From Nitrospira sp. (GTDB lineage Bacteria > Nitrospirota > Nitrospiria > Nitrospirales > Nitrospiraceae), in contig JARFXO010000002.1 of NCBI GenBank assembly GCA_029194665.1, positions 124,001 to 188,000 on the forward strand: a stretch of DNA of 64,000 nt. Direction: 5' to 3'. A model generated the notes under the pieces. The model was given only the letters and a program-made list of their open reading frames with translations, was not told where the DNA came from and ran no database searches. Shown here piece by piece: positions 3-59,874 of this stretch (position 1 is its first letter; each line of letters begins with the position of its first letter). The position numbers were made by a program, and so were the translations under genes.

Positions 3-869
3 GTGATGGATCTGACCGGGACCGGACGCCTCTTCGGACCTACCTATGACATTGCAGCGAAGGTCCAGCATGAAGTCCTCGCCCAATATCGACTTGATGG
101 GGTCGCCGGTGTGGGGAGCAACAAGCTGGTGGCTCAGACTGCGGCGACGTTGATTCAGCCTTCAGAACTGTATGATGTCCGACCTGGCTCTGAGCCGGTA
201 TTCATGGCGCCGCTCTTTGTACGCACCCTGCCAGGCATGCAGCGGCCATGCATGAGACAGGTCCTGACGCGGCTCGATGATCTGAACCTCGACCGGCTCG
301 GGGACGTGGCGGAGAGTCCCGTTGACGCGTTGGAAGTGGCGTTGGGGGATTATGCCAGGCAACTCTCCCGCTGGGCGCAGGGAATCGATTTCGTACCGGT
401 ATTGCCACAGGCGAGTCAGCCCCAGCTCGAAGAGACGGTCCTCCTCGATCCAGATGAAATCGATGATCCGGTGCTGACCGGTCGGTCGCTGGATGCCCTG
501 CAAAGGCTCTGCCGGACGCTGCGGAGTCAGCGTCGTGTCTGTGGCCGTCTATCCCTCACCATCCGCTATAGCGATGACCTCGAAGTAACCAAACACGAGC
601 GCGTCACGCCTGAGACCTGCTGGGAATGTGATCTGTCTCACGTGGTGCGATCACTCTTTCAGAAGTGTATGCGTCGGCGAATTCGACTTCGCGCGATGAC
701 GCTCAGTATGGCTGGCTTGACCGGCTTTGCCGAGCAAGGCCTGCTGTTCGATGCTCGGCCTGTTGAGGAACAGCGTCTGCAAGAACGGGCCAAGAAGCTC
801 GCCGTCGCGCTCGATCAGCTCCATGCCCGATTCGGTGAGCAGGTCATTTGGTATGGCAGGAGTAGTTGA
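3..869 (+). CDS. Y-family DNA polymerase (ImuB/DinB-like), C-terminal part, 5' end outside window
   Basis: Carboxy-terminal 288 residues of a Y-family lesion-bypass polymerase; the gene is already open at the window edge. The segment begins inside the palm at LDLTGTGRLFG, the usual sequence after the catalytic DE pair, followed by GVGSNKLVAQTAA (the conserved 'G.a.nK..Ak.A' stretch) and then the thumb and little-finger regions. The nucleotide-binding N-terminus and acidic residues are not visible. The stop codon abuts the GTG start of the DnaE-type polymerase gene, so the two are translationally coupled. That pairing is known from imuA-imuB-dnaE2 mutagenesis cassettes, where the Y-family member recruits the alpha subunit to damaged DNA. 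The family is clear. Whether it is an active polymerase or an inactive ImuB cannot be judged without the N-terminus. Confidence 0.85.
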   Translation: MMDLTGTGRLFGPTYDIAAKVQHEVLAQYRLDGVAGVGSNKLVAQTAATLIQPSELYDVRPGSEPVFMAPLFVRTLPGMQRPCMRQVLTRLDDLNLDRLGDVAESPVDALEVALGDYARQLSRWAQGIDFVPVLPQASQPQLEETVLLDPDEIDDPVLTGRSLDALQRLCRTLRSQRRVCGRLSLTIRYSDDLEVTKHERVTPETCWECDLSHVVRSLFQKCMRRRIRLRAMTLSMAGLTGFAEQGLLFDARPVEEQRLQERAKKLAVALDQLHARFGEQVIWYGRSS

Positions 870-3800
870 GTGGCCTTTGTCCACCTGCATACGCATTCAT
901 GTTATTCGCCGATGTGGGGTATACCGACAGTGGAGGCCCTCTGTCAGGCCGCTCAATCACAGGGACAGGACTATCTCGCGCTCACTGATACCAATGGACT
1001 CTATGGAGCAATTCGCTTTCTAGAGGTCGCACGTGAGCATGGACTGAAGCCGATCTTGGGAGCCGAGCTGGTTTGCGGTCGGCACCGGGCCGTGCTGCTT
1101 GCGAAGACCTCCAATGGGTACGCCAATCTCTGCCGAATTCTGTCCGCCCGCCACTGTGATGCGTCCTTTGATTTCATCGAAACCGTAGCGCAGCATCGAG
1201 CGGGACTAATGATCCTGTCTGATGATCCAATTGCCCTGCCGGTGTGGCAGGCGGAGTCGGAAGAGGATCTCTACGTCGAGCTTACGCCTGGTCCAGCCTT
1301 ATCAGACTCGGTCGCATTGAGCCATCGGCTCAGACTCCCGCCGGTGGCCACAACCCGCGCCGCGTTCCTGCATCCCACGGACTATCAGGCCCATCGGCTG
1401 CTACGCGCGATCGCCGAGAACACCACCCTCTCGCGACTCAAGGCCAATCACTGTGCACTCCCCTCTCACTGGCTCATGCCGGAACCGGTGCTCGCGCGCC
1501 ATCTGCCTCATATTCCAGAGGCCATCACCAACCAGCGGCAGATTGCCGAATCGTGCTACACGGAGTGGGACTTCAAACAAACCATCTTTCCCTCTTTCCG
1601 TCAGCTCTCCTCAGACGCCGCCTTTGAAACCCTGCACCACAAAGCCTACGAAGGCGCCATCTGGCGCTATGGTGCCTTGTCTCCCGTGGTCCGCCAACGG
1701 ATCGAAAAGGAACTCGCGGTGATCCGGGAGAAGGGCTATGCCGATTACTTTCTCGTGGTGGATGAGATCGTGCGGCAAGCGCCACGGACCTGTGGTCGAG
1801 GGTCAGCCGCGGCGTCAATCGTCTCCTACTGTCTCGGCATCACCCATGTGGATCCGATCAAGCACCATCTCTTCTTTGAACGGTTTCTCAATCCCGGTCG
1901 CCACGATCCGCCGGACATCGACATTGATTTCCCGTGGGATGAGCGACCGAAGATTCTCGACTGGGTGTTCACGCACTATGGACACCAACACACAGCCATG
2001 GTCGCCAATCAGAACACGCTTGCCTCTCGTGCCGCCTTGCGGGAGATCGCCAAGGTCTATGGCCTGCCTGCCGGAGAGATCGGCAAGGCGCTGAACTTTC
2101 TCCAGCGACGAGCCGACTTCGTCGAGGTGCAACCCGGCATGACGGTGCAAGACTGGGCGCGGGACGTCTGCCAGGCCTTGAACCTCAGAAACCCTTGGCC
2201 GGAGATTCTCTATTGGTCCACGAAATTGGACGGCCACTTCAGAAATCTTGGTCTCCATCCTGGCGGGGTTGTGTTGGTTCCAGATGAGATCCGACGCTAT
2301 GTGCCGGTCGAGATCTCCGCCTCCAACTTACCGGTGATTCAATGGGAGAAGGATCAGACAGAAGAGGCTGGGCTGGTCAAGATCGACCTCTTAGGCAATC
2401 GCTCGCTCGCCGTCATCCGTGACGCCATCGCAGCCGCCGCGCGTAATACCGGACGTGTCATTGATTATGCAACCTGGGACCCGCTCAGTGATCCAGCCAC
2501 GAACGAGTTGATTCGACGAGGAGACACCATGGGCTGTTTCTATGTCGAGTCTCCCGCGACGCGGCTCTTGCTCAAGAAGCTCTGGGTTGGGATGCCGCCG
2601 GCGCGACGTGCCATGGCCGATGTCTTTGAGTATCTCGTGGTCGTGTCGTCGATCATCCGTCCCGCTGCGAATGTGTTCGCCGATGAATTCGTGCGTCGAG
2701 CCCATGGCCAGCGCTATCAGTCGCTTCATCCGCTGCTCGATGAGGTCCTCGCTGAGACGCACGGCATCATGGTGTATCAGGAAGATGTGATGAAGGTGGC
2801 GGTCACCTTGGGTGGATTCTCGGTTGAAGACGGCGATCAGCTGCGGAAGGTGTTGAGCAAGAAGCACAAGGCACGGCAACTGCGAGACTATCAACGCCAG
2901 TTCTATCAGGGAGCCACAGCTCGTGGTGTGGAAGGTCGCGTGATCGATGCGATCTGGGTCATGATCATGAGCTTTGCGGGCTATAGCTTCTGTAAGCCGC
3001 ATAGTGCGAGCTATGCGCAAGTGAGCTTCAAGTCCGCCTATCTCCGAGCGCACTATCCAGCAGAGTTCATCGCCGCAGTCGTGAGTAATCAAGGCGGGTA
3101 CTATTCGGCCTTCGCCTATCTGTCTGAAGGGAGACGCATGGGACTGACCATCCTTCCGCCTGACATCAACGCCAGTACCTGGGCCTACACGGGATCTGGC
3201 AAGACGGTTCGTGTCGGGTTCATGCAGATCAAAGATCTTCAGGAAGACCTCGCCAAGCAGATCATTGGGGAACGAGAAGCGGATGGTTCGTACCGATCGC
3301 TGTCAGATTTCTTGAGTCGCGTGAAGCTGGACTATCCCCAAGCCAAATTGTTGATCAAAGCCGGATGCTTTGATTCGATTGCCGGTGAACTCACCAGACC
3401 GGCCCTCCTCTGGCGCGTGTTTGCCGCGCAGGCGACGAAACCACCGAGCTCCATCCCGATTCCCACGGAATATTCAGCCCAGAAGAATCTACAGCATGAG
3501 CTCGCCCTCTTCGGCTTTCCACTCCAATGCCATCCGCTCGATCTGTTCACGGAGGCATTGGCTGCGACTCCTCACATGTTCGCCAAGGACTTAGATCAGT
3601 ATGTGGGAAAGGAAGTCACTCTAATCGGTTGGCTCCTGACGGAGAAGATCGTCTCTACCAAGAAAGGTGAGCCGATGGAGTTCATGACCTTAGAGGATCA
3701 AAACGCGATGTATGATGCCACCGTGTTTCCAACTACCTATCAGCGCTACTGTCATCTCCTAGCGACAAACCAAGCCTATGTGGTGACGGGCTCGGTCGAA

Positions 3801-3902
3801 GAGCATTTTGCGACCGTCACGGTCACCGTGAAAACACTACAACTCCTCACCACCGGTGGAATCCCGGCACCGAGTGAGCCTCTTGAGGAGTTAAGCGTGT
3901 AG
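870..3902 (+). CDS. dnaE2: DNA polymerase III alpha subunit, error-prone DnaE2/ImuC-like
   Basis: C-family polymerase of 1010 residues, shorter than replicative DnaE (about 1160) and in the range of DnaE2/ImuC. It starts at GTG directly after the upstream stop. The N-terminal PHP domain begins FVHLHTHSCYSP. The polymerase palm carries PPDIDIDFPWDERP (the two catalytic aspartates of the PDxDxDF motif) and a third acidic residue in VKIDLLGNRS. The fingers contain GYSFCKPHSASYAQ. An OB-fold lies near residues 900-960 (VTLIGWLLTEKI). The likely role is translesion synthesis together with the coupled Y-family protein, usually under SOS control; the promoter lies to the left and is not visible. The context (Y-family partner upstream) favours DnaE2 over the replicative enzyme. 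The symbol is assigned by family resemblance. Confidence 0.85.
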   Translation: MAFVHLHTHSCYSPMWGIPTVEALCQAAQSQGQDYLALTDTNGLYGAIRFLEVAREHGLKPILGAELVCGRHRAVLLAKTSNGYANLCRILSARHCDASFDFIETVAQHRAGLMILSDDPIALPVWQAESEEDLYVELTPGPALSDSVALSHRLRLPPVATTRAAFLHPTDYQAHRLLRAIAENTTLSRLKANHCALPSHWLMPEPVLARHLPHIPEAITNQRQIAESCYTEWDFKQTIFPSFRQLSSDAAFETLHHKAYEGAIWRYGALSPVVRQRIEKELAVIREKGYADYFLVVDEIVRQAPRTCGRGSAAASIVSYCLGITHVDPIKHHLFFERFLNPGRHDPPDIDIDFPWDERPKILDWVFTHYGHQHTAMVANQNTLASRAALREIAKVYGLPAGEIGKALNFLQRRADFVEVQPGMTVQDWARDVCQALNLRNPWPEILYWSTKLDGHFRNLGLHPGGVVLVPDEIRRYVPVEISASNLPVIQWEKDQTEEAGLVKIDLLGNRSLAVIRDAIAAAARNTGRVIDYATWDPLSDPATNELIRRGDTMGCFYVESPATRLLLKKLWVGMPPARRAMADVFEYLVVVSSIIRPAANVFADEFVRRAHGQRYQSLHPLLDEVLAETHGIMVYQEDVMKVAVTLGGFSVEDGDQLRKVLSKKHKARQLRDYQRQFYQGATARGVEGRVIDAIWVMIMSFAGYSFCKPHSASYAQVSFKSAYLRAHYPAEFIAAVVSNQGGYYSAFAYLSEGRRMGLTILPPDINASTWAYTGSGKTVRVGFMQIKDLQEDLAKQIIGEREADGSYRSLSDFLSRVKLDYPQAKLLIKAGCFDSIAGELTRPALLWRVFAAQATKPPSSIPIPTEYSAQKNLQHELALFGFPLQCHPLDLFTEALAATPHMFAKDLDQYVGKEVTLIGWLLTEKIVSTKKGEPMEFMTLEDQNAMYDATVFPTTYQRYCHLLATNQAYVVTGSVEEHFATVTVTVKTLQLLTTGGIPAPSEPLEELSV

Positions 3903-11387: not shown

Positions 11388-11735
11388 TTAGCTGGGCTGT
11401 GTCAGAATATCCGCGATTTGAATGATTGCATCTCTTTCTTGTTCGAATTCTTCGTTCATAAATCCGTCGGCGAAATCCATGACATCGCGCAGAACTTTGT
11501 AATTCGCATCACTAATATCGAGAACAATATGGCCGTCGTTACGTACGGCACTGGAGAAGGCGGCGCTCAATGTCGTCAACTGGATTTTTTCGATGCTCTC
11601 GAGCGTCCAGAAATCGAGCCTGTCAAAATCCAGGGCAATACGGTCGGTCACCTTTTGGATGATCTGGAACTCGGCCTCGCTCATTTCGAGCTGCCGTGTA
11701 TGATCGCTGGGTTTTGTCAGTTTCATCGGTTGCAT
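11388..11735 (-). CDS. small paralogous protein B (115 aa, unknown family)
   Basis: Close paralogue of the product at 8519-8866: MQPMKLTKPSDHTRQLEMSE, the block DRLDFWTLESIEKIQLTTLS, and MDFADGFMNEEFEQERDAII near the end. It is full length with a normal ATG start. It lies 12 bp downstream of the third family member, so the two are likely one transcript. Function unknown. Conserved aromatic and acidic positions (W in DFW, F in FADGF, the EEFE tail) suggest a compact helical fold that binds a basic partner; that is inference only. Confidence 0.65.
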   Translation of the reverse strand: MQPMKLTKPSDHTRQLEMSEAEFQIIQKVTDRIALDFDRLDFWTLESIEKIQLTTLSAAFSSAVRNDGHIVLDISDANYKVLRDVMDFADGFMNEEFEQERDAIIQIADILTQPS

Positions 11736-11747
11736 TGTCCCGTTTAT

Positions 11748-12089
11748 CTAGTCTCGCGCAGGCAGCAATACGTTCGTGATCTCGATGATTGAGCCGTGAT
11801 CCGATTCAAATTCTTCGTTGAGAAACCCATCAGCAAAATCCATCACATCGAAGAGCACTTCAAAATTCACGGTATCGATCTCCAGCGTGACGCCGTTCGG
11901 CACGGGAGCTACAGCGGAAAGCAACGAGGAAAGACCGTCGACCTTCGCCTTGCTGGTGTTCTTTACTGTCCAGAAGTCGAGGTCGCTGAATTCCTGGCTT
12001 ATATACGATGCGACATTCCGGATGATGCGAAGCTCGTCTTCGGTCATCGACAATTGCTTGTAGCCCTGCCGGACGATTGATACTTGCAA
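11748..12089 (-). CDS. small paralogous protein C (113 aa, unknown family)
   Basis: More diverged member of the same family: YKQLSMTEDELRIIRNVASY, SDLDFWTVKNTSKAKVDGLS, VMDFADGFLNEEFESDHGSI, ending EITNVLLPARD. The shared positions (DLDFW.., FADGF.NEEFE.D...I.I..)  make the relationship clear. It is the first gene of a two-gene run with the paralogue downstream. Its 3' end is duplicated at 5266-5330. Confidence 0.65.
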   Translation of the reverse strand: MQVSIVRQGYKQLSMTEDELRIIRNVASYISQEFSDLDFWTVKNTSKAKVDGLSSLLSAVAPVPNGVTLEIDTVNFEVLFDVMDFADGFLNEEFESDHGSIIEITNVLLPARD

Positions 12090-13031: not shown

Positions 13032-15905
13032 CTACTGGGAACAGATTAAAGAGAGGAGATTAAGATTGAAGAATGACAGAGGGATCGGGTAAAAACGGGT
13101 CGGCGCTTCGCTCGCATCGGAGTGGGTCCCTAAACTGCCCAAGAGGAGGAAAGTGCACATGACGAATATAGCTTCAGTTAGTATCGTTCTTGCTGCCGCT
13201 TGGCTCGTTGGTTTCAGTGATGGGAACGACCTAGTGGGCAGTTGGAGGGCCACTTCCATAGACATGTCGTTTGCGGAAGGGCGAATTCCACCGGAGAGAA
13301 TGAATACCATAAGACAAGATGTTTTGAAGAATGCCGCTGGAAAGGTTTGCAACGACCAGGCATTCTGGTTGAACAGTGCGACTTGCCATTCGATGAGCAA
13401 TGGCTGGCCTTTACGGTTCGGGATAAGCCCCATAAGAATGAAGGCCTGCTCCCCATCTGCAAGTTGTGGACAGTGAATCACAGGAACGCGATGTCGTCCG
13501 AACGCCGTCAGGACCCGGTCTGACAGCCAGCCCATAATAGGATGTTGCGGCCAGAGATAGTGCAACGTGGGCCAGCTGTCCTCTTCTTGTTTGGCCTGGC
13601 GGGCCGTTTCAATTGCTTGCGCCACCTGGTCTTTGCGCGCGCATAACGCATACCGATGATCGCTGTCGCGTACTTCTAATGGGAGGGTGACACGCAATCG
13701 TTCCTGCAAGTCCAGTGGAGCAGTCAGCGTAATGGTTTGGCTCTGATCATCAGCGCCAAACTGCGCAATGGGATCGTGATTTGATAGCTGCTGTAGTGCA
13801 GTCTTGGCAAAGGCGTAGTCGCCACTCAGTTGGGCATTGCCAAACAATGACAGACCATCGCGGATAGAGTCGGTACTGGACGAGCGCAGGTTTGCCGCAC
13901 CTCCTGATGATTCGGCCTGACTGAACAACTTCAGTAGCCAGTCGCCATCGTCTTCTCCCATGCTCTGTGAAGCTGCCTGGTTCCCATCAATCTTTGCCTC
14001 AAATTGCTCGGGGCTTGTCCCGGCCGCCATGACTTCGGCGACCTTGGCCGCTTCTTTTTCAGGATCAAACACGTGCAGAAAAGAGGCTGGGTCCCCTAGA
14101 TTCTTGTTTGCTTGCTCATCCTTCTTCTGCAGGATTTCCAGTATGCGGAGATCGCCTTTGATGCGCTCAACATCCGTCTCCGTAAACACATAGACGATGC
14201 GTGGCTGTTGTTTTTGGCCGTAGCGATCCACGCGGCCATTCCGCTGCTGAAAGACCATCAGCGACCAGGGCAGATCAAAGTGGACCAGCCTATGGCAAAA
14301 GTAATGCAGATTCAGTCCCTCTGAAGCCACATCCGAGCAGAGCAACACACGGATCGGGTCAGCATGCCGACCGAAACGCTCGACCAACTCCTGCTGCTCA
14401 GTATCCGACATCTCTCCCCATAAGAGGTCTACCTGATTCGCCTTCAAGCCAACTGCTTTGGGAAGTTCTTCCTGGAGCCACCGGATCGTTTGAATCCGCT
14501 CGGAGAATATAACCAAGCGATCATTTGGGTCAGTCGGCTTCCAGTTAAACTGCGGACTCTTCAGATGCTGGACCAAACGCTGGAATTTGCAAAAGCTGGC
14601 TGCGTCTATCTTGCGCAAAGTCGCTGCAAACTCTTGGAGGGCGGCAATTTCGACCTGCTCGTCGGCGCTAACAGAAGGCTTGCTTTGTAGCGATCTCATT
14701 CGATTTTCCGTGGATTCCAAAGCAGCAACAGGACTAGAGAAAATGGCCTTTTGCATCCCCACGCGTTGTAGTTCCTGCTGTCTTCCCGCTTTGCGTTGGC
14801 CTCCCTGCGTGAATGGAATCCGCAGCAGGGCTTCGTAGGCAGCCTCTTCCTGGGGACTGGCCGTTTGCCTGAGCTGCTCAGTGACGCGCTCTTGGAAGTC
14901 CTCCTTGACCTGATCCCGTATGTCTTTTTTGAATCGCCTGATGACGAGGCCTTTGTCGCGAAAATCGGCAGGGGTATAGTCGTCTGGATCACTGATGGCA
15001 GTCGGGTCCAGCAGGGTCATGAGAGACGCGAAGCTGCGTGCTGAGCCGTCATGCGGCGTGGCCGACAACAGAATCATGGTGTCCGAGCGCCCTGCGAGCA
15101 ACCGTGCCAGACGCGCCCGTCTGGCTAAGCCCTCCTCGCTTGCCCGGGCTGCCACGTTCTGGCATTCGTCGATGATGATGATGTCCCACCAGGCATTTTC
15201 CAGATAGTTGCGGTACTCGAGATTGTTCTTGAGTGTATCGATGGAGATAATGGTGCGGTCGTAATAGTTGAACGGGTTGTGGTTACTCGGAATGTTGTTG
15301 CGAACCCGTTGCAAGCCTACCGAATCCAGCCGTACCAACGGAATTGAAAAGCGACACCAGAACTCCTTTTGGAACTGGGTCAACATGCTCTTCAGTGCGA
15401 CCACCAGAATGCGCTGGCCCCGCCCACGCTGAATCAACTCCGTGGTCAGAATGCCGGCTTCGAGCGTCTTCCCTAAGCCCGTTGCATCGGCAATCAAGAT
15501 GCGCTGCCGTGGCTGTCTGAGCGCTTGCAGAGCTGGATCAAGCTGGTACGGTACCAAATCCATGACCCCTCGGTGCCCCAGATGGATCATCTGATCGTTG
15601 GGGGTACTGCGCCGCAGTTGGGCCTCAAGGTACAAGAATGTGCTATTGAAATGGGAACTCGTATCAGGGACGAGTTCTGTCTTGGCGGGATCGAGAACGG
15701 TAATCTCCCCTTCAAGCTCCGTCAGAAAAAGCGCTGTTCTGCCTCTCACCAGGTGGGATACTCCGTCGCAGGTGAGTAAATAACCGCCGTCTGTCGACGG
15801 ATCGACTCGCCGGACAAGCCATTCTTCGTCTCGGATAACGACCCGAGAGCCGGGGGCGTAAGAAAGAATGGAAGAATTCATGTTCATGGATAAAGGGCTT
15901 TCCAT
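13032..15905 (-). CDS. SNF2/RapA-like helicase (DrmD-like), C-terminus probably replaced
   Basis: About 957-residue Swi2/Snf2 superfamily-2 translocase. Motif I is LIADATGLGKTLEAG, motif II is an unusual DECQ (IIIIDECQNVA), motif III SATPHDGSARSF, and the second lobe carries LCSDVASEGLNL and QQRNGRVDRYGQ. This combination is found in RapA-like helicases and in DrmD of DISARM defence. The predicted Snf2 region ends near residue 620; the rest is a helical tail. The last ~40 residues (TFLLLGSLGTHSDASE and on) do not look native, so the gene has probably lost its true 3' end at about 13.16 kb. I use the ATG at 15905; the frame is open to a TTG at 15926. It lies downstream of the AddAB-like pair, likely co-transcribed (180-bp gap). 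Confidence 0.8.
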   Translation of the reverse strand: MESPLSMNMNSSILSYAPGSRVVIRDEEWLVRRVDPSTDGGYLLTCDGVSHLVRGRTALFLTELEGEITVLDPAKTELVPDTSSHFNSTFLYLEAQLRRSTPNDQMIHLGHRGVMDLVPYQLDPALQALRQPRQRILIADATGLGKTLEAGILTTELIQRGRGQRILVVALKSMLTQFQKEFWCRFSIPLVRLDSVGLQRVRNNIPSNHNPFNYYDRTIISIDTLKNNLEYRNYLENAWWDIIIIDECQNVAARASEEGLARRARLARLLAGRSDTMILLSATPHDGSARSFASLMTLLDPTAISDPDDYTPADFRDKGLVIRRFKKDIRDQVKEDFQERVTEQLRQTASPQEEAAYEALLRIPFTQGGQRKAGRQQELQRVGMQKAIFSSPVAALESTENRMRSLQSKPSVSADEQVEIAALQEFAATLRKIDAASFCKFQRLVQHLKSPQFNWKPTDPNDRLVIFSERIQTIRWLQEELPKAVGLKANQVDLLWGEMSDTEQQELVERFGRHADPIRVLLCSDVASEGLNLHYFCHRLVHFDLPWSLMVFQQRNGRVDRYGQKQQPRIVYVFTETDVERIKGDLRILEILQKKDEQANKNLGDPASFLHVFDPEKEAAKVAEVMAAGTSPEQFEAKIDGNQAASQSMGEDDGDWLLKLFSQAESSGGAANLRSSSTDSIRDGLSLFGNAQLSGDYAFAKTALQQLSNHDPIAQFGADDQSQTITLTAPLDLQERLRVTLPLEVRDSDHRYALCARKDQVAQAIETARQAKQEEDSWPTLHYLWPQHPIMGWLSDRVLTAFGRHRVPVIHCPQLADGEQAFILMGLIPNRKGQPLLIEWQVALFNQNAWSLQTFPAAFFKTSCLMVFILSGGIRPSANDMSMEVALQLPTRSFPSLKPTSQAAARTILTEAIFVMCTFLLLGSLGTHSDASEAPTRFYPIPLSFFNLNLLSLICSQ

Positions 15906-16105
15906 GATCCATCGGTTACGATCCAAAGGAGATAAGAACCGTTGGGAAGAATAGCTGCATTCATCTCAAAAATCAGCCCACTCCTTTGAGAAGGAATCTG
16001 ACTGAGACACACAATACATTGCATCTATTTGTCTCGGATGCCGCGTCAACTACCACCTAGAATATTCCCCTCACGACAATTCTTCCTTGCTCCGGCATCT
16101 TCATA

Positions 16106-19100
16106 TCACTCACCTATCGCTATCCGAACTGCTCCAGCCGCGACTGGCAGCACAAGCCAGCTTTCTCTAACCGAGCGGCCGGTGACCCGAACCAGCGCCT
16201 CGGTATAGCAGGATAATTGTCCACTGTGTTCGGAAGCCACATCGTTCCACTTGTCTCTGGATGCTGGATTGGCCTTATGGTCAAGGACTACCCACCCCTC
16301 CGGCACTTCAAGCAGGAGATCGATCCGCCCCTGCAAGATTTGGCCGTTGAAAAGAACAGACTCGATCGTGATCTCCGCATGACGGCGACAATCAGGCCAC
16401 CGAGCAGCAACCCAGGTTTCTATCGCCTTGATCTGACGGCCGAGTTCGGTCGGATCGATCGCACTGGCCAAGCCAAAACCGTCGAGGATACGTGTGACCC
16501 GAGTCTCATCGAGCGTTGTTTGGGGATCGGTGAATGCTGTCGCCATGCAGGCATGCACGGCGTTGCCCAATGCTGTCATGTCGATCTCCGCCTTCAGCTT
16601 GATTCGCTCTCCCAGTGATAGGGTTTCCATAACCTTGCAGGGTTGGCTCACGGAAGCCGACGCGAGGAAGACTGCCGGCAAGCGTTCCGTGCGCGAATCG
16701 GGAACGGGAAACCACCGAAGGGCTGTATCGGGTTCCATCGTGGCTGCCATTGCGCTGGGAGCCTGAAGACTCCGGAATTGAAATGGAATCTTGGAGTCAT
16801 CCGGCAGCACGATCGAATCAGTCGCAGCGTCTGGCGCCAGCCATGGGGCATTCAGGGAACCCAGCCATTCACACGAGCCTCTTTTCGCGGGCAATCCAAA
16901 GACGAGACAGTCACGCGCTCGCGTCATGCTCACGTAGAGGAGACGCTTGGCCTCATCAATCGCTTCTGCACGCAAGCGCACCCCCTCGGGTGATTGGGCA
17001 ATCCTATCGGCAATGTCGACTTTCTGCTGGGCACCAAAGGGCCAAGGCCAATAGCGGATCCACCGGTCCTTGAGCGGGGCGGCAACGTCGAGATCTACAT
17101 CGGACCTGGCGCTGACGGACCAGAGCCGGTCCTGGATGTCCTTCTCTAAATCGAGGAGAATGACGATCGGCCATTCCAGCCCTTTGGCCGCGTGATGCGT
17201 CATGACTTTCACTGCATCAACAGGCGGCTCGGCAAGGATGTCGAGCTTCCCTCGCGCTTGTTCACCGAACCAGAGGATCAGGCCGGACAAGGCCGCCGGT
17301 TCACGTCGCGCCAGACAGGTCTCTTCATAGGATCGCGCCAGATTGCGCAACGCATCCAGGTTGGCCAGACGCACTCTCGCCACGAGTTCGTCCCGCCGCC
17401 AGCGGAGGACCCTGCCTGCGAGATCGCATTGCGTGATGATCAGTTCCATCGCTGCATACGGAGACAGCAAGGATGCCTGCGCACGCAACTCTGCAATTCT
17501 CGTCAGCAGCGGATGACCGCCCTTGCCCTCATCCCGCCAACGTGCCTTGTCCCCATCCTTTTCCAGATACTGCAACCGATCGGACAACCAGGCCTCCGGT
17601 TCCTCACAGTCTGCCAGCGATAGGATCTCGGCGCTTGCAAGGGTATCCCTCGGATCGTTCAGCCGTCTGAGACAGGCAAGCGCCAACACCGCCTCTGGGG
17701 TGGAGAGTAGTCCGGATTGTTGCGTCGCCCATGGCACGGAGGCGGCGCGAAGGGCTTCCGCCACCGTCTGCACTCGATCATTGGTCTTGCAGAGTACGGC
17801 AAAATCACCAAAATGAGCCGCGCGGGGACTGCCCGTTTTGGGATCGACGATGCAATATCCCGAGCCAACCAATGCCTTTATGCCTTCGGCGAGGGCTGCA
17901 GCTCTTTCCTCTGCGTTCTTGCCGTTCAGAGTCCAGCCGGCGAAGGGTGGGTCTTGGACTTTCTCATCCCGCACCGGTGTCAGTTCCACCTCATTGCGCG
18001 AGAATCCAGGGGAGAAGACCTCACCGAACGCGGCGTTGACCAATCGGACTAAAGAAGGCCGAGAGCGGCGGGATTGCCCGAGAATCTCTTTGGTGCCTCC
18101 GAGACTGGACAGTCTTCCAATGACGGCTTTCATGAGTTCGCCGTCACTGCCCCGGAATCCGTAGATCGCCTGTTTCACGTCTCCGACCCAGACCGTTTCT
18201 CTGGCAATGCGTGAGAGCCGCACGAAGATTTCGAGTTGAATAGGGCTCGTGTCTTGAAACTCGTCGACCAAAAGGAGTTCCAGCTCTTCCGACAAGACCT
18301 CACGGACGGAAGGGTTTTCCAACAAGCCAAGAAACAGATGCTCCTGGTCCACGAAGTCGAGGACACCCAGTTCCCGTTTTCTCTGCGCGTAGGCCTCCAG
18401 CGTCTTTGCACCCAACCTAAAGATGGCGGACAAATACTCCACGATATCTTCTCGAAGTTTCGGATGGGCGGCAAATCGGCCGGCGATGTCCGTCACCGGT
18501 TGGGCCTGTGTCTTGAGTCCCGACTCTGGTGCGGCCTTGGAGAGTTTGACCCAGTCGGCCCAGGTGGTGTTGCCGTTTTTCACGGCGCGCATCGTCTCGC
18601 GCGCCAGCGTCATATACTCGGCTGTATTCTTTTTTCCGGTTGCGCGTTGATCGAGTTCGGGAAGCACGCGCTCAATGGTTCGGACAAGCGCCGCATCAAG
18701 GTCTTCCACGCTCGGAGCGGGAAGGTGCGTGAGGAGATCCTTGGCATTGCGGGCGCCGAAGGTTGCACAACGGTCTGGTGCGATATCGTTTGCTCGGGCC
18801 TGGTCAATGAGCAACTTGAGTTTCTCATCCCAATCGTCGATGCCCAATCTCCGAGCGGGCGAGTTGATCCTCTGTAACGTCTCGGTGTCGGACACCGCAT
18901 CAAGCGCTTCCCGCACGAGCGCGCCAGCCTGTGCCTCCTCAAGCACCCGTTGCACCGGAGCTAATCCTGCCTCGAAGGCAAATCGCTCCAGCAGTCCCCC
19001 ACTCACACTATTGACCGTGCCGATGCGTGCCTGACCCATGGAATTGGCCAGGGTTACTTCACCATTCTCAAGAAGCGCGATCCGGACCCTCTCGCGCAGC

Positions 19101-19249
19101 TCCGTTGCCGCCTTCCGTGTAAAGGTCGTCGCAATGACGCCGCTGGGCGAGACTTGCTCGGAGCTGAGCTTTTCGTGAAGGATCTGCGTGAGCCGGTAGG
19201 TCTTCCCGCTTCCTGCGCCTGCACTGACAAATGTGATCCTGCCAGCCAT
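16106..19249 (-). CDS. UvrD/AddA-like ATP-dependent helicase with C-terminal PD-(D/E)XK nuclease
   Basis: 1047-residue superfamily-1 helicase-nuclease of the AddA/RecB type. Helicase motifs in order: Walker A VSAGAGSGKTYRL (residues ~8-20), motif II LLLVDEFQDTSP (~350), motif V MTHHAAKGLEWPIV, motif VI LYVSMTRARDCL. The C-terminal nuclease shows RIDLLLEVPEGWVVLDHKAN (D...D-x-K) and a QLSCY helix, near the end as in AddA. It starts 3 bp after the AddB-like stop. Canonical AddAB repairs double-strand breaks and degrades linear DNA; here the pair stands in an accessory region with a SNF2 protein, so a defence role is plausible. The intact motifs argue for activity. Confidence 0.88.
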   Translation of the reverse strand: MAGRITFVSAGAGSGKTYRLTQILHEKLSSEQVSPSGVIATTFTRKAATELRERVRIALLENGEVTLANSMGQARIGTVNSVSGGLLERFAFEAGLAPVQRVLEEAQAGALVREALDAVSDTETLQRINSPARRLGIDDWDEKLKLLIDQARANDIAPDRCATFGARNAKDLLTHLPAPSVEDLDAALVRTIERVLPELDQRATGKKNTAEYMTLARETMRAVKNGNTTWADWVKLSKAAPESGLKTQAQPVTDIAGRFAAHPKLREDIVEYLSAIFRLGAKTLEAYAQRKRELGVLDFVDQEHLFLGLLENPSVREVLSEELELLLVDEFQDTSPIQLEIFVRLSRIARETVWVGDVKQAIYGFRGSDGELMKAVIGRLSSLGGTKEILGQSRRSRPSLVRLVNAAFGEVFSPGFSRNEVELTPVRDEKVQDPPFAGWTLNGKNAEERAAALAEGIKALVGSGYCIVDPKTGSPRAAHFGDFAVLCKTNDRVQTVAEALRAASVPWATQQSGLLSTPEAVLALACLRRLNDPRDTLASAEILSLADCEEPEAWLSDRLQYLEKDGDKARWRDEGKGGHPLLTRIAELRAQASLLSPYAAMELIITQCDLAGRVLRWRRDELVARVRLANLDALRNLARSYEETCLARREPAALSGLILWFGEQARGKLDILAEPPVDAVKVMTHHAAKGLEWPIVILLDLEKDIQDRLWSVSARSDVDLDVAAPLKDRWIRYWPWPFGAQQKVDIADRIAQSPEGVRLRAEAIDEAKRLLYVSMTRARDCLVFGLPAKRGSCEWLGSLNAPWLAPDAATDSIVLPDDSKIPFQFRSLQAPSAMAATMEPDTALRWFPVPDSRTERLPAVFLASASVSQPCKVMETLSLGERIKLKAEIDMTALGNAVHACMATAFTDPQTTLDETRVTRILDGFGLASAIDPTELGRQIKAIETWVAARWPDCRRHAEITIESVLFNGQILQGRIDLLLEVPEGWVVLDHKANPASRDKWNDVASEHSGQLSCYTEALVRVTGRSVRESWLVLPVAAGAVRIAIGE

Positions 19250-19252
19250 CGG

Positions 19253-21883
19253 TCAGTTCTCCCACCCGACAAGCCAGCGGTACTCGTCATATTCTTCAGA
19301 CAACGCTTCCGGTACGAGGGCGCCGGGAGGTGCTTCCGAATCCGGGGTCGGCTCGATGTCTTCGACGGCAATCTCGATCTTTCCTCCGTCGATTTGGGAA
19401 CGGCGCCATCTCCAAGTCGCGACGAGTTGATCCCACAGTTGCTGGGTGGTTCCCGTAGAGTTTGATTGCACGGTTTGCGCTTGGGGAAAGAATGTTGCAT
19501 CGGGCGCGAGGAGGCGCGACGCCTCAAGGATGAAATAGGCAACCTCCGGCCAGGTTCCTGTTTCCTGTCGCAACAGCTCTGCATACAGAGCCAACTGCAG
19601 ATGCCTATTCTTAGCGAGGCGATCCTTGTGTGTGTTGGCACCTGCCCATTTCATATCGACGATGGCCTGGCCGCCCGCTTGCTTGCGCACGACGAGATCG
19701 GCTTGTCCTTCGAGGTTGCCTCCAGCAAACTTTCCGGTCAGACTGCGCTCCGATTCCACCACAACAATACCGGCGGCAGAGAATTGTCGCTGGATCTCTT
19801 CAAGCGCGCGGCCCAACGCTGCGCGAAGCCACTCTCGATCCATGCGACGGCCCGGCATCAGCAGGACAGCACCCTCCTCCGCCACGACAGACTCGAATTC
19901 CTGCAACAACCAACCTGCCAGCGCATCCCCATGAAGCTCATGCGCATTCCCGACATGAAAAAATCGGTCAACGATCCGATGCGCGAGATTACCGTAGAGC
20001 CGATTCTCATCGGTCACGGCAAGAAGGTTCGACGGATTAAGTCGAGCCGCGTACTTCAAGACCCATTGATGGGGCGCATTGAGGAACAGGTTGAGGCTCG
20101 AATAGGACTCGCTGGGCCGACGCGCAATTGCGACCTCACGAGGGAGCTGCCACCATCGCCTGCGTTGCGGGAGCGGCACATGGGCCACTTGCTGCAGGTC
20201 TTTCCCGGCATGACCATTCACCAGGACTTCGAGCGGCTCCGGCCGGAGATCGCTGATGAGCCCTTGAATTTCAAGCCAAATCGGGTGCACTTCCACACCC
20301 GGAGGAGGAAGCACAAGCACCAGCTGCTTCCGAACGCTGAGGATGGGGCGAAGCCAATCATGGCTTTGATGTGCCAGGACCTTATCAAGAGGCGGGAGTT
20401 CGACACCGGCTCGCGCGAGCATGTCCAGTTCGCGGCGACTCCAAGGATAGCGGTTAGGCAGCGAGGGTGCTCCCATCTGCCACCAAATCACCTGATCAAA
20501 GGGTTCAATCACTGCGGCAGGGTTAGATGCAGAAGGCACACATCCGACCTGAGCATGCATCGCGAAGTTCGGCGCGCCTCGGCCTGTGCAATGAGCCACC
20601 AGGGTTTCAATCGCGACCGGCTTGATGGAGGTTTCCCCCTGAGCAGCCAACGCTTCAAGCGAGGCGGCCACCGCCATGGCCTGCCTGTATCCTGTGGCAT
20701 TCGCCAGACTGAGAACGGAGTCCTGATCGTACATACCAGCTTGGAAGTAGTCGCGAACCCTCCAGATGCGTTCGAGCACCGTCGCAATCGGGGCACCTTG
20801 CATAGGGCTATAGCGGGGATGTTCGATCCAGCCTGCCAAAGAATCGCGGATCTCCGCAACACGATCCGGATACTGTCTTTCGAGGTGATCGATAGTTTCC
20901 CGCCAGCGAGGTCCGCCGATTCCTGGGGTTTCTGCAATAACCTCAGCCAATCGTCTGCGGACATATCCAGGCACAGGTCCAATGGGGTGAGAGAGAAATT
21001 CCAGAAGGGCGTAGACATCAAGCGGTTCCCAGATGATGGCGAGGGCGAGAGGCAACACTTGCAGCGCAGGGACTAACGGGCTCGAATCCTGACATCCCTG
21101 CCTGGGGACGTCGGCTGCATTAAACGTAGCATCAAGTAACGAACCGTCATGCTCAGCGACAATTGCGACCTCCTGCTGATGTGCAGTAAGCAATTGTGCC
21201 ACCCATCGTGCCGCAAGCAGACTGGTCTCTGCACACACCACACGCAGACTCCCATCGTCCGACCAGGCAACCTTCCCATTTGGTTTCTTGCCCTCATGGG
21301 CCACCTTGAGGACACGCTGAAGCTTCCCCAGAACGGTGTGTTCGGACGCTTGAGGTTCATAGGCTCGTGGAGATTGGACCGGCAGCTTCGCGAGGACTTC
21401 CCGCCAGCGCTTCGAAAAGGCTTCTACCGAATCGACGAGCTTGAGAGTTTCGATTCCAGATTTCTGTCCAGAAAGCGCCTCCGCCAACTGGCCCAGTCGT
21501 TCCCCTAGCGAAGGAAACACTACCTCCCGGGCAACCTTCTCCACCGCCGCTATGTCGCCGATTCGCAGTTCTGCTCCAGGTGGCGCATTGCCATTCCAGC
21601 CACCCAGATACCACTCGTCTCGCCATGACAAGAGTGAAGCGGATACTCCGATCGGATCGACAGCGAACGATGCATGATAGAAGCGCTCTGGCGTATCGCA
21701 ACGCTTGAGACATTCACGATACTGGGTGATTCGTTGTGCCTGCGTGCATTCCGCACGCGGCAATCCAACCCTCGTCTCAAGGAGGTTCAACAATCCTAGG
21801 GGGCCAAGAACAGGCTCCCCCAATCGATTGGCCGGGCGCCAGCCGTGTTCACCATCCAAGTGGAGTCCGAACACGACTTTCAT
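19253..21883 (-). CDS. AddB-like nuclease subunit
   Basis: 876 residues starting MKVVFGLHLDGEHGW, first gene of the operon. The N-terminal and middle parts resemble an inactivated helicase as in AddB (no clear Walker A). The C-terminal PD-(D/E)XK nuclease is GNLEGQADLVVRKQAGGQAI, then VDMKWAG (D...D-x-K) and LQLALYAELLRQ. The four cysteines of the AddB iron-sulphur cluster are not seen around this domain, which sets it apart from Bacillus AddB. With the adjacent AddA-like protein it would form a heterodimeric helicase-nuclease with two nuclease sites. No partner gene lies upstream on this strand. Confidence 0.8.
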   Translation of the reverse strand: MKVVFGLHLDGEHGWRPANRLGEPVLGPLGLLNLLETRVGLPRAECTQAQRITQYRECLKRCDTPERFYHASFAVDPIGVSASLLSWRDEWYLGGWNGNAPPGAELRIGDIAAVEKVAREVVFPSLGERLGQLAEALSGQKSGIETLKLVDSVEAFSKRWREVLAKLPVQSPRAYEPQASEHTVLGKLQRVLKVAHEGKKPNGKVAWSDDGSLRVVCAETSLLAARWVAQLLTAHQQEVAIVAEHDGSLLDATFNAADVPRQGCQDSSPLVPALQVLPLALAIIWEPLDVYALLEFLSHPIGPVPGYVRRRLAEVIAETPGIGGPRWRETIDHLERQYPDRVAEIRDSLAGWIEHPRYSPMQGAPIATVLERIWRVRDYFQAGMYDQDSVLSLANATGYRQAMAVAASLEALAAQGETSIKPVAIETLVAHCTGRGAPNFAMHAQVGCVPSASNPAAVIEPFDQVIWWQMGAPSLPNRYPWSRRELDMLARAGVELPPLDKVLAHQSHDWLRPILSVRKQLVLVLPPPGVEVHPIWLEIQGLISDLRPEPLEVLVNGHAGKDLQQVAHVPLPQRRRWWQLPREVAIARRPSESYSSLNLFLNAPHQWVLKYAARLNPSNLLAVTDENRLYGNLAHRIVDRFFHVGNAHELHGDALAGWLLQEFESVVAEEGAVLLMPGRRMDREWLRAALGRALEEIQRQFSAAGIVVVESERSLTGKFAGGNLEGQADLVVRKQAGGQAIVDMKWAGANTHKDRLAKNRHLQLALYAELLRQETGTWPEVAYFILEASRLLAPDATFFPQAQTVQSNSTGTTQQLWDQLVATWRWRRSQIDGGKIEIAVEDIEPTPDSEAPPGALVPEALSEEYDEYRWLVGWEN

Positions 21884-22410: not shown

Positions 22411-23391
22411 TTAGGACCGGTCTCGCTCCGGCGAACGAGTCTTTAGAACGCCCCGCGACCGCTCACTCAAGTAGCGGACAAGGTCTGCGGCCAGTTGCCG
22501 ATCCTCCCCACGGTCTGACCGGGCTAACGTCCGCATCACCTGCTCATAATTCCGCATGACGTCCTGGGTTCGTCCAGGTCGGCGCGTGGTGCGTTTCAGT
22601 CGCTCCAACGTCTCCCCTTTCCTACTCACCTCATGCAGGTGCCGCACCGTCCAACGTTCATGCGTCGTGCGGTGAATCCGGCTCGTAGTGGTGGCCTCGA
22701 TGCCATGCTCGCGTAAGGCTTCCGCAAACCCCTCCCGCCAACGTTGCAGATCGGCCTTTCTCGGATTCAAGCGGACCCCATCGAGGCCTGCTGCTTTCAC
22801 TGTAAGATGCACATGTGGATGCGGAGAGGGGTGCGGATCTGGATCGGTCTCAAACGTGTGCAGCACCATCGCGTACTGAAACCCTGAGAACTCCCGCATC
22901 GCAAAGTCACGGGCCGCGCGTTGAACAGACAACGGATCGGTGCGTGTCGGCATGGAGAGGACGAGATGAAAGGCATCGCGCATGGTCGAATTTGCCGCGA
23001 TCGGCATCCCTCCATCCCGCCATTCGTCTTTCAGATCGGCCACTGCCTCCTTCCCGAGAATCACCTGACCGTCTTGATCTTCGATCTCGAGAAGCCCATC
23101 GCGCGAAATGTAGGTGAGGTTGTTCGAGATGCCCTTCATCCCTTTCGGCGCCCTGACGAGTTTCACCACGACTTGGGGTGAACGCCGAACCATCGCTTGT
23201 AATTTCCGCCGCACATAGGTCGCCCGAGCCTGTGACGTGCTAAGCCGTCCGCCGGTACTCACGCGCTTGGCGGAACTCAGACGAACACTCCTGCTGGACC
23301 TCGGTCGTGGGAGGGTCTCCGTTGAGACATTGAAGAGCCGACTCCCCCACTCATCGAGCTTCTCGTCAATCTGGTTGGTTGGCGGGGTCAT
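22411..23391 (-). CDS. VirD2-like (MOBP) relaxase
   Basis: 326-residue mobilisation relaxase. It shows GISNNLTYISRDG (motif I, with the Y..R stretch) and HPSPHPHVHLTVKA (motif III, the metal-binding histidines), both in the N-terminal half, followed by a basic tail. The protein would nick at oriT and attach to the 5' end through a tyrosine. I take the ATG at 23391, which overlaps the MobC stop in an ATGA; the open frame further upstream only shadows mobC. No type IV secretion genes are present, so this is a mobilisable element that would need a helper. Confidence 0.87.
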   Translation of the reverse strand: MTPPTNQIDEKLDEWGSRLFNVSTETLPRPRSSRSVRLSSAKRVSTGGRLSTSQARATYVRRKLQAMVRRSPQVVVKLVRAPKGMKGISNNLTYISRDGLLEIEDQDGQVILGKEAVADLKDEWRDGGMPIAANSTMRDAFHLVLSMPTRTDPLSVQRAARDFAMREFSGFQYAMVLHTFETDPDPHPSPHPHVHLTVKAAGLDGVRLNPRKADLQRWREGFAEALREHGIEATTTSRIHRTTHERWTVRHLHEVSRKGETLERLKRTTRRPGRTQDVMRNYEQVMRTLARSDRGEDRQLAADLVRYLSERSRGVLKTRSPERDRS

Positions 23392-23939
23392 TGGAGGTGC
23401 CAGCGCTCCACGGTCCCGCGTAAGACATCGGACACTTTCTTCGTATGGGCCTGGATGACGCGAGATAGTTCGGTGATGACTTCGACCCGAAAGGCGGTCC
23501 GATTCTGAGGCGCGGTATTCAAGACTTTTGCAATCTGGTTCAGGTTCCTGCCCAAAGCCAGCAGTTGTTGGTTCGAGCGGGCCAATGTCTCCAATTCCGG
23601 CTGTCCGACCTGCGGTTGCCCGGTCAACTTGGTGCGCACCATTGCCACCACCCATTTCGTCGGCACGTAACCTTCGTGACCGGCCATCTTCTTCAGGGCG
23701 GCGAGCTCTGAGGTCGTCAGGTTCAGTTCGATGCGAGCGGTCGCTCGTTCTCGCTTTGGGATGGCGCGACTCCGAGTCATCGGGGCCCGCGTCGCTCGCC
23801 GGTCCATGGCCTGCCGAAGGGCGTTCCGGAATGCATGGCTCGGAGTGATACCTTGCTGCTCACACCAGGCCTGCCATGGCGCTTTGAGTTCACCCAAATC
23901 CACCGTGACCGTGGTCGTCCGTTTCGCCCGCTGCCCCAT
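23388..23939 (-). CDS. mobC: MobC-like relaxosome accessory protein
   Basis: 183 residues. N-terminal part RTTTVTVDLGELKAPWQAWC, then a ribbon-helix-helix-like region RATARIELNLTTSELAALKK, and the MobC helix LLALGRNLNQIAKVLNTAPQ. MobC proteins bind near nic and help the relaxase open the strands. Start at MGQRAKRT (23939); a Met 12 codons upstream is the alternative. The gene is translationally coupled to the relaxase and lies 115 bp from the candidate oriT, the expected order. Confidence 0.83.
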   Translation of the reverse strand: MGQRAKRTTTVTVDLGELKAPWQAWCEQQGITPSHAFRNALRQAMDRRATRAPMTRSRAIPKRERATARIELNLTTSELAALKKMAGHEGYVPTKWVVAMVRTKLTGQPQVGQPELETLARSNQQLLALGRNLNQIAKVLNTAPQNRTAFRVEVITELSRVIQAHTKKVSDVLRGTVERWHLQ

Positions 23940-24053
23940 CAGCTCACCTGCACCAGCCCAAATTGAGACACCCAACTCCCCTCACCGACCTGTGGCTGAT
24001 TCCGGTCATGAGGGATCAAAGCACAATACGCACAAGAATACGATAAACCCAGA

Positions 24054-30023: not shown

Positions 30024-30077
30024 GTATGGATAAAACCGTTTGCATTTAATTGTAAGTGCATGCATATTTATCCATAC
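30024..30077. promoter_or_regulatory. inverted repeat operator of the AbiE operon
   Basis: GTATGGATAAA at 30024-30034 and TTTATCCATAC at 30067-30077 are perfect 11-bp arms, 32 bp apart, ending 2 bp before the AbiEi ATG. AbiEi proteins repress their operon by binding inverted repeats in the promoter; the position fits. TTTAAT between the arms may be the -10 box, which would make the transcript nearly leaderless. Confidence 0.65.
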
Positions 30078-30079
30078 CT

Positions 30080-30688
30080 ATGAAGCACGTTGAGCTGAAT
30101 CGCCGAGCTGAAGCTGTGTTCCGCCGCCATCGAGGCGTGCTACGGACTTCTCATGCCCTGAAGCTTGGGATCCATCCACGCATTCTCTACCGCCTTCGTG
30201 ACGCCGGACGACTTGTTGCAGTGACACGGGGAGTCTATCGGCTGGCCGACCTCCCTGAGCCGAGCCATCCGGATCTTCTTGTCGTGGCACGCCGAGTCCC
30301 GCAGGCCGTGATGTGTCTCATCTCGGCACTCTCCTTCCATGGCCTCACCACCCAAATCCCGCACGAGGTCCAGATTGCGTTGCCTCGTCGGACCCGGTAT
30401 CCACGGCTCGACCATCCTCCGCTTCGCGTCTTTCTGATGACGGGTGCTGCGTACACTGAAGGGGTCGAAACGCATTCTATCGAGGGAATTCCGCTTCGCG
30501 TCTATGACCCAGCAAAGACGGTGGTGGACTGCTTCAAGTTTCGGAACAAAATCGGCATTGATGTGGCCGTTGAGGCACTGCGACTGGCCCGTGAGCGGAA
30601 ACGCGTGACGCCCCGTGCGCTGCTTCAGTATGCGCGCCTCTGCCGAGTGGAACGTGTGATGCGTCCGTATCTGGAGGCACTCACATAA
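30080..30688 (+). CDS. abiEi: AbiEi-family antitoxin (type IV toxin-antitoxin)
   Basis: 202 residues from MKHVELNRRA; a start at 30056 is possible but would run through the operator arm. N-terminal winged helix FRRHRGVLRTSHALKLGIHP followed by YRLRDAGRLVAVTRGVYRLA, the AbiEi DNA-binding domain, then the C-terminal antitoxin domain with CLISALSFHGLTTQIPHEVQ and YDPAKTVVDCFKFRNKIGID. It represses its own operon and counteracts the toxin without stable binding in studied systems. Its stop overlaps the toxin start by one base (TAATG). Confidence 0.9.
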   Translation: MKHVELNRRAEAVFRRHRGVLRTSHALKLGIHPRILYRLRDAGRLVAVTRGVYRLADLPEPSHPDLLVVARRVPQAVMCLISALSFHGLTTQIPHEVQIALPRRTRYPRLDHPPLRVFLMTGAAYTEGVETHSIEGIPLRVYDPAKTVVDCFKFRNKIGIDVAVEALRLARERKRVTPRALLQYARLCRVERVMRPYLEALT

Positions 30689-31602
30689 TGGCCGGTCATC
30701 CATCCAATCTGCCGGCATCGATTCATCAGCGGCTGCTCAACCACGCGAAACAGCAAGGCCGGCCTCTTCAAGAGCTGCTCCAGTATTTTGCCATTGAACG
30801 ATTCCTGTTCCGTCTCAGTCAATCGCCGCATGCCACCCGATTTTATCTCAAGGGGGCGCTCATGCTTCGGCTCTGGGATGCACCCCTGTCGCGTCCAACG
30901 ATCGATGTGGATCTGATGGGGCGACAGATCTTGTCCCAGGATGAGCTGGAGCAGGTCATCAAGGACATCTGTGTGCACGCGGTGCCGGATGACGGCTGCC
31001 GCTTCGAGGCAGCCACCGTGCGAGCCCAGCCCATTCGGCTTGAAGATCAGTATGGGGGCATCCGTGTCGCATTCATGTCCCATATTGGGAAGATGCGGCT
31101 CAACATGCAGGTGGATGTCGGATTTGGTGACGTCATCGTTCCAGGACCGATTCCGATTGATTTCCCGGTACTCCTGGATTTTCAGGCCCCTCATCTTCTG
31201 GCGTACTCCCCTGAGAGTGCGATCGCGGAAAAATTTCAGGCGATGGTGCTGCTGGATTCAGCGAATAGCCGAATGAAGGATTTTTATGACATTTGGCTGC
31301 TTGCCAGCGGTCATCCATTTGAGGGCTCTGTTGTGAGCCACGCACTCCAGGCCACGTTTACGCGGCGACAGACCCCTTTCCCATTGGACATTCCCACTGC
31401 ACTGACGGACCTTTTTGTGAAGGATCGCCTCAAACAGACACAGTGGAATGCCTTTGTCCGGAAAGGCCATTTTGCTGCTGAGCAGATGTCACTCAGTGCA
31501 GTTGTGGAGTTACTGCGAGACTTCCTGATGCCTCCCATGCGAGCCGTGGCCAACAGCGAGCGCTTTGACCGCCATTGGCCAGCCGGCGGGCCTTGGACGT
31601 GA
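30688..31602 (+). CDS. abiEii: AbiEii-family nucleotidyltransferase toxin
   Basis: 304 residues of the AbiEii/MenT family, a polymerase-beta-like nucleotidyltransferase that blocks growth by modifying an RNA target (tRNA in MenT relatives). Motif I region FYLKGALMLRLWDAPLSRPT followed by IDVDLMG carries the D-x-D metal ligands; a further acidic site lies in MQVDVGFGD; the K and D in SAIAEKFQAMVLL and RMKDFYDIWLL complete the family pattern. All look intact, so the system is probably functional. With AbiEi it gives phage abortive infection in Lactococcus. Confidence 0.92.
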   Translation: MAGHPSNLPASIHQRLLNHAKQQGRPLQELLQYFAIERFLFRLSQSPHATRFYLKGALMLRLWDAPLSRPTIDVDLMGRQILSQDELEQVIKDICVHAVPDDGCRFEAATVRAQPIRLEDQYGGIRVAFMSHIGKMRLNMQVDVGFGDVIVPGPIPIDFPVLLDFQAPHLLAYSPESAIAEKFQAMVLLDSANSRMKDFYDIWLLASGHPFEGSVVSHALQATFTRRQTPFPLDIPTALTDLFVKDRLKQTQWNAFVRKGHFAAEQMSLSAVVELLRDFLMPPMRAVANSERFDRHWPAGGPWT

Positions 31603-59731: not shown

Positions 59732-59874
59732 TGTCAGCGGTCATGCAATAATCCCCAGATGTGGTCAATGAATTCTCCCCACCCTCTCACCGAAGGAGGG
59801 ATGTGATGGAACTTGACGATAGCAAGGAGACAACGATCATACCGTCCCAGGTAGACCACACTCGGGAGGTATGT

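Follow-up and report, generated by a model that had tools for sequence, protein, structure and literature searches.

The window, by which we mean the whole 64,000-nucleotide stretch of Nitrospira DNA that we analyzed, contains three intact open reading frames that follow one another on the minus strand, where the first-pass annotation had placed them. In reading order these are B, which encodes an AddB-like protein; A, which encodes an AddA-like protein; and a SNF2 gene. These and the other features of the window are listed in Table 1.

Table 1. Features of the window, with the basis for each assignment
Feature	Position	Strand	Basis or remark
ORF pair with polymerase homolog	3-3902	plus	
PHP-type DNA polymerase III alpha homolog	870-3902	plus	directly behind another ORF
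Three related ORFs, 113-123 aa	8519-8890, 11388-11735, 11748-12089	minus	
SNF2 ORF	13032-15926	minus	Pfam SNF2-rel_dom and Helicase_C
False C-terminus of ArmA remnant (unrelated read-through sequence)	13032..13360	minus	no homology
Orphan 3'-truncated ArmA (SNF2/RapA-like motor of ARMADA type II)	13360..15887	minus	homology
A, AddA-like subunit (1047 aa)	16106..19249	minus	Pfam, NCBIfam, PDB match, motif counts
B, AddB-like subunit (876 aa)	19253..21883	minus	Pfam, alignments, AlphaFold2 model
Module with relaxase	22.3-29.4 kb		adjoins B
MobP1-like relaxase, upstream of B	22411..23655	minus	Pfam Relaxase 2.6e-9, MobP1 1.1e-22
MobC/NikA/DDP1-like accessory mobilization protein	23388..23975	minus	weak matches, below cut-offs
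ORF just before AbiEii gene	30056-30688		may be its antitoxin
AbiEii toxin-family protein	30688-31602	plus	E 1.4e-44
3480-aa ORF	42176-52618	minus	RTX repeats
HsdR-like ORF, shortened (607 aa)	56888-58711	minus	N-terminal and motor part
Fic-domain ORF	58826-59719		
IS21-type transposase/IstB pair	59761-61922	plus	

B consists of an inactive helicase-like N-terminal part and a RecB-family PD-(D/E)XK nuclease (PDDEXK_1 in Pfam, E = 4e-20), which is the arrangement of the B subunit in AddAB-type enzymes. In alignments, the window's B retains the nuclease residues H635, D729, D743, K745, Q763, and Y767. Of 36 accessory B proteins (the window's B and its relatives, as distinct from housekeeping AddBs), 35 have all of the nuclease residues H, E, D, D, K, Q, and Y, and the remaining one has aspartate instead of E712. 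None of the 42 B proteins that we compared (the 36 accessory ones plus 6 housekeeping ones, of which some are cut at the N-terminus) shows a Walker A pattern within its first 120 residues. An AlphaFold2 model of B (pLDDT 87, pTM 0.75) has AddB from the AddAB of B. subtilis as its best Foldseek match (E = 2.6e-22), and VIA-align gives Z = 20.4 over 775 residues for AddB versus 15.7 for the next family. A search of PDB sequences with a B profile found nothing under E = 0.01, and no NCBIfam model matched B. With PADLOC-DB 2023, B had only weak matches to nuclease domains, one to DruK (2.5e-12) and marginal ones to DruK and Cas4.

A is a UvrD-family SF1 helicase with a C-terminal PD-(D/E)XK nuclease, as is the A subunit in AddAB-type enzymes; Pfam identifies UvrD-helicase (3e-43), UvrD_C, and a C-terminal PDDEXK_1 (3e-11). 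The Walker A and B motifs are intact and the nuclease residues are retained. Across 31 A proteins, each helicase residue is present in 29–31 and each nuclease residue in 30–31; the single gap among the nuclease residues is in a gene that is split by other ORFs (L053). The closest PDB sequence match of A is AddA (3u44_A, E = 1.7e-24). A scores 203.7 bits against the NCBIfam model for AddA, whose cut-off is 707.65 bits, and it also matches GajB models (best E = 9.7e-32).

In the window, the stop codon of B lies 3 bp ahead of A. A start codon for A is possible from -19 to +3 bases around the stop of B in 24 of the 25 loci that we tabulated, and in the 25th (L070) the stop of B was misassigned. 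B and A are a translationally coupled pair. A comparison with the sister genome G276 gives dN/dS values of 0.18 (B) and 0.16 (A), which indicates that both have been maintained as functional genes. The ORFs, the Pfam domains, and the spacing all bear out the first-pass description of two AddAB-type PD-(D/E)XK proteins 3 bp apart.

The third gene had been described as a DrmD/RapA-like SNF2 protein with a DECQ box, and this is what we see: its best matches are to models of the DrmD/BrxH type, and its motif II is DECQ, versus DEAH in four aligned homologs. We considered whether it could be the DrmD of DISARM and rejected this, as it scores 340.6 bits and the equivalog cut-off is 610 bits. Residues 22–856 are 49% identical to the product of the first gene of four-gene loci on plasmids of E. 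coli and Klebsiella, and similar four-gene loci are present in Pseudanabaena, Microvirga, and Martelella. In these loci, the SNF2 gene is followed by genes for a large methyltransferase, a giant DEAD/DEAH helicase, and a UvrD helicase, which matches the ArmA-ArmB-ArmC-ArmD order of ARMADA type II. That system gives E. coli protection from 13 out of 80 phages and depends on the Walker motifs of its ArmA (Bell et al. 2025, PMC12458937).

The SNF2 protein is homologous to ArmA only up to residue ~856, or about 13.36 kb in the window, and beyond residue ~860 there is no homology to the four aligned ArmA proteins. The first-pass annotation was right that the C-terminus is damaged, but it put the break at 13.16 kb. 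Judging from the alignment, translation probably begins at the ATG near 15887 and not at the TTG at 15926. Using tblastn, we found nothing below E = 0.01 for ArmB, ArmC, or ArmD in the window; ArmC also had no match in this genome, in a search without a positive control. ArmA-type matches of at least 150 amino acids are absent from all 48 loci with B (described below), including the intact sister copy in G276, and the pair is absent from all five ARMADA loci. Given the truncation, the lack of any trace of ArmB-D, and the lack of linkage to the pair, we are confident that the SNF2 gene is the remnant of a separate ARMADA type II system. Near the remnant there are also three related small ORFs (Table 1); Pfam gave no match for the one that was scanned.

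A search of the genome (4.8 Mb in 17 contigs) with the PDDEXK_1 profile identified a second adjacent pair, on contig C5. It comprises an AddB with the C-terminal cysteine motif and an AddA of 1116 amino acids, which rules out the possibility that the pair in the window is the genome's only AddAB. The pair is also rare among relatives: B has a match in 5 of 59 genomes of the genus, including this one (G341 carries two copies), and in 5 of 295 genomes of the phylum at E = 1e-5, of which only three matches are strong, all in the same genus. In a phylogenetic tree, the 36 accessory B proteins and 6 housekeeping AddBs form separate clades with 100/100 support, although some of the housekeeping branches are long and some of the housekeeping rows are cut at the N-terminus. 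The window's B does not group with the AddB of its own genome, and A stays short of the AddA equivalog cut-off. Other PDDEXK_1 proteins are present in all 18 of the 18 host genomes. B and A are almost certainly an accessory AddAB-type pair. That they are not the housekeeping complex had been proposed from the sequence, along with a check for another AddAB in the genome; the AddAB on contig C5, the scarcity of B within the genus, and the defence genes that surround the pair elsewhere (see below) all agree with the proposal.

To describe the spread of the pair, we used 48 loci with B, of which 38 are genome loci and 10 are from plasmid or phage records and same-genus genomes; these are partly redundant, as L012 and L069 are the same, L036 and L062 are the same, and L056, L057, L058, and L065 are near-copies. 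Gene A comes after B in 42 of the 48 loci. Of the six that lack it, four are contigs whose sequence breaks off within B, and the remaining two are copies of a single same-genus locus (G258) in which B is truncated. A is reduced to 112 residues in L045 and is interrupted by other ORFs in L053. Based on record titles and tree origins, the hosts represent at least 8 phyla and include Pseudomonadota, Nitrospira, Myxococcota, Acidobacteriota, Walliibacteriota, Verrucomicrobiota, Thermodesulfobacteriota, and Bacillota. Using tblastn, we found B in 26 plasmid records, of which 17 were typed as conjugative. A search of viral contigs for B gave no match. One record with the pair is labelled as a phage (MT835507, L016), but we read it as bacterial DNA because its B is nearly the same as that of Pseudomonas laurylsulfatiphila (tree branches of 0.014 and 0.021). 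Searches of open-licence full text with our terms found no description of the pair as a system.

The module with the relaxase, which adjoins B in the window, is common, in whole or in part, to two other loci from the same genus (G258 and L068). Within the B of L068, a stretch of 157 bp has 99% identity, compared to ~83% in its surroundings, and this contrast is a sign of recombination.

The first-pass annotation saw no Fe-S cysteines in B, and the alignment confirms this: the window's B has none of the four cysteines that bind the 4Fe-4S cluster in AddB. All four are missing from 26 of the 36 accessory B proteins (the window's and 25 others), and they are present in the other 10 and in all 6 housekeeping AddBs. 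One of the cysteines is ahead of the nuclease motifs and three are at the C-terminus. On the tree of B, this pattern requires just one change. Apparently, the lineage of the window's B lost all four cysteines once and retained the catalytic residues. In AddAB, the cluster is said to be essential for binding DNA ends, a result ascribed to Yeeles and dated 2009. A single loss of the four cysteines with the nuclease residues retained is a natural test of the role of the cluster in AddB-type proteins.

Known defence genes lie near the pair in many lineages. In G276, the sister genome, a type 1 BREX locus comes directly after the intact pair, with PglZ at 1023 bits and BREX domains in BrxC, and there is a WYL regulator upstream. 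ZorA (787 bits) and ZorB (348 bits) come after the pair in L043, along with an EH_Signature protein. We also found ZacC in L054 (884 bits) and L059 (1069 bits), a type I methyltransferase in L076, a PDC-M27C-like helicase in L016, an MmeI-type RM protein in L052, and a BrxC gene in L073. In several loci, among them L066, L071, and L075, we found no clear defence gene near the pair. In 14 of the 48 loci, genes of the WYL cluster (domains were checked for six of them) lie upstream of B at a distance of no more than 4 kb; in six of those 14, four of which are near-copies, they are within ~110 bp of B.

As a control for these neighborhoods, we used 20-kb stretches taken from other places on contigs of these genomes. 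With PADLOC at E = 1e-20, we found 108 families in 103 flanking proteins, compared to 20 in 110 control proteins; these figures count models and not independent genes, and one BREX locus contributes many of the 108. WYL models matched up to 5 of the flanking proteins and none of the 110 control proteins.

A few other genes recur around the pair. Small secreted-looking proteins that share an 'AEDLGxLSANP' start and NPF repeats are encoded just 5' of B in two loci and after BREX in one (L034:13210-13707, L035:13490-13909, and L047:9070-9537). An AAA ATPase of ~700 amino acids (one was scanned) is beside a WYL regulator in four loci (L055:5799-7904, L060:3550-5637, L016:8546-10633, and L064:17976-20066). 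According to the record annotation, two rhizobial plasmid loci have ubiquitin-like conjugation genes (ThiF, Mov34/MPN, and multiubiquitin) near the pair (L012:6437-8648 and L013:20617-21820).

Elsewhere in the window, the shortened HsdR-like ORF and the Fic-domain ORF adjoin the IS21-type transposase/IstB pair, and they are probably further decayed restriction genes of the region. The window also encodes an AbiEii toxin-family protein and a very large protein with 29 stretches of RTX calcium-binding repeats. At the start of the window is the PHP-type DNA polymerase III alpha homolog; together with the ORF before it, it resembles an imuB-dnaE2 mutagenesis cassette.

What is the function of the accessory pair? 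The genes are coupled, form a separate clade, have intact motifs, are under purifying selection, are patchily distributed on plasmids and islands, and lie in defence-rich neighborhoods. The best explanation of these observations is that the pair works on its own, as an accessory helicase-nuclease dedicated to defence that degrades foreign linear DNA, and we consider this probable, with the defence role being suggested by the neighbors. A fuller account, which we give about the same chance of being right as of being wrong, is that the pair is an immune system in its own right, as yet without a name: a duplicate of AddAB now dedicated to destroying the ends of foreign DNA, carried by plasmids and islands in at least eight phyla, sometimes controlled by WYL proteins, and working, in one large branch, as an AddB-type nuclease that does without the Fe-S cluster.

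If so, A and B would assemble into a heterodimer and load on the free ends of double-stranded DNA. A would unwind the DNA by hydrolyzing ATP, and the two nucleases would each cut one strand. The targets would be foreign linear DNA such as phage genomes and perhaps entering plasmids, and the pair would act beside, or in place of, a host RecBCD or AddAB that phages inhibit. The host's DNA might be spared by recognition of Chi, by induction under the control of WYL proteins, or by competition with the host's enzyme. E129/R629 are the Chi recognition/ionic latch residues of AddAB (PMC4824097); WYL proteins are described as regulators of defence and of DNA-damage responses (PMC9122601); and competition with the host enzyme is proposed for Gabija (PMC12407980). 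In some hosts, the nearby WYL regulator would control the pair. The adjoining ArmA, decayed and with ArmB-D lost, would have no part in the pair's function.

The association with defence genes also fits with the pair being cargo of the elements that carry it, as most of the plasmids with B (17/26) were typed as conjugative and the window's copy adjoins a relaxase. The pair could be a second AddAB for repair or recombination that benefits the plasmids and islands themselves, by mending breaks in the element or by recombination after conjugation, with the defence neighbors being merely what islands collect. The AddAB architecture, the plasmid records, and the relaxase module beside B in three genomes of the genus speak for this. 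But the hosts already hold other PDDEXK_1 proteins of AddAB or RecB size; BREX, Zorya, Azaca, and RM genes directly adjoin the pair in different lineages, while the control from the same genomes is far poorer in defence genes; and WYL regulators are recurrent upstream of the pair. We think that a repair role is unlikely. It seems more doubtful still that the pair is a helper nuclease of BREX or of other large systems: although it is directly upstream of type 1 BREX in G276 and near a BrxC gene in L073, its neighbors elsewhere are Zorya, Azaca, type I or MmeI-type RM, or none of these, and the window has no recognized complete system beside it.

The proposal of the first-pass annotation, that the AddB-like, AddA-like, and SNF2 genes make up one DISARM-like system of three genes that could not be named, is almost certainly wrong, and as a conserved set it is refuted. 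In its favor, the three genes are consecutive on one strand in the window, the pair in Lysinibacillus has another SNF2-related gene behind it, and helicases of the ZacC type neighbor it in L054 and L059. Against this, none of the 48 loci has an ArmA-type match of at least 150 amino acids, and a lack of linkage elsewhere was what the first-pass annotation itself had named as grounds for refutation; moreover, the SNF2 gene can be named as ArmA from its own four-gene context, it is truncated, and the sister copy in G276 does without it. If instead the pair is a stand-alone immune system, as we favor, then housekeeping enzymes of end resection have been recruited whole into defence, and the pair offers a direct test of how an AddAB-type enzyme distinguishes the ends of phage DNA from those of the host, whether by Chi, by regulation, or by competition with RecBCD.

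Among known systems, DISARM (DrmD) and BREX (BrxHI/II) are related to this locus through the SNF2 gene, which scores with DrmD and BrxH models; it is nearer to ArmA, and no other DISARM gene was recognized near the pair. The locus resembles ARMADA type II in having a homolog of ArmA, but this lacks its C-terminus, has DECQ for DEAH, and is not accompanied by ArmB-D. Gabija (GajA-GajB) is a two-gene defence system with a helicase and a nuclease that acts on DNA ends (PMC12407980). The pair is likewise a helicase and a nuclease encoded by two genes, and A matches GajB models. However, the best solved relative of A is AddA, with GajB far weaker, and the partner of A is an AddB-type PD-(D/E)XK protein and not an OLD/TOPRIM protein of the GajA type.

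The closest likeness in plan is to AddAB of the B. subtilis type (and to AdnAB and RecBCD): two coupled subunits, with a motor and a nuclease in A and with an inactive helicase-like part and a nuclease in B, whose model matches AddB over nearly its full length. The pair differs from AddAB in that its B is shorter (876 amino acids, versus 1132–1156 in the solved chains) and belongs to its own clade, with the Fe-S cysteines lost in the window's part of it, and its A is below the cut-off of the AddA model. Also in contrast to AddAB, the pair is patchily distributed, mobile, and found beside defence genes.
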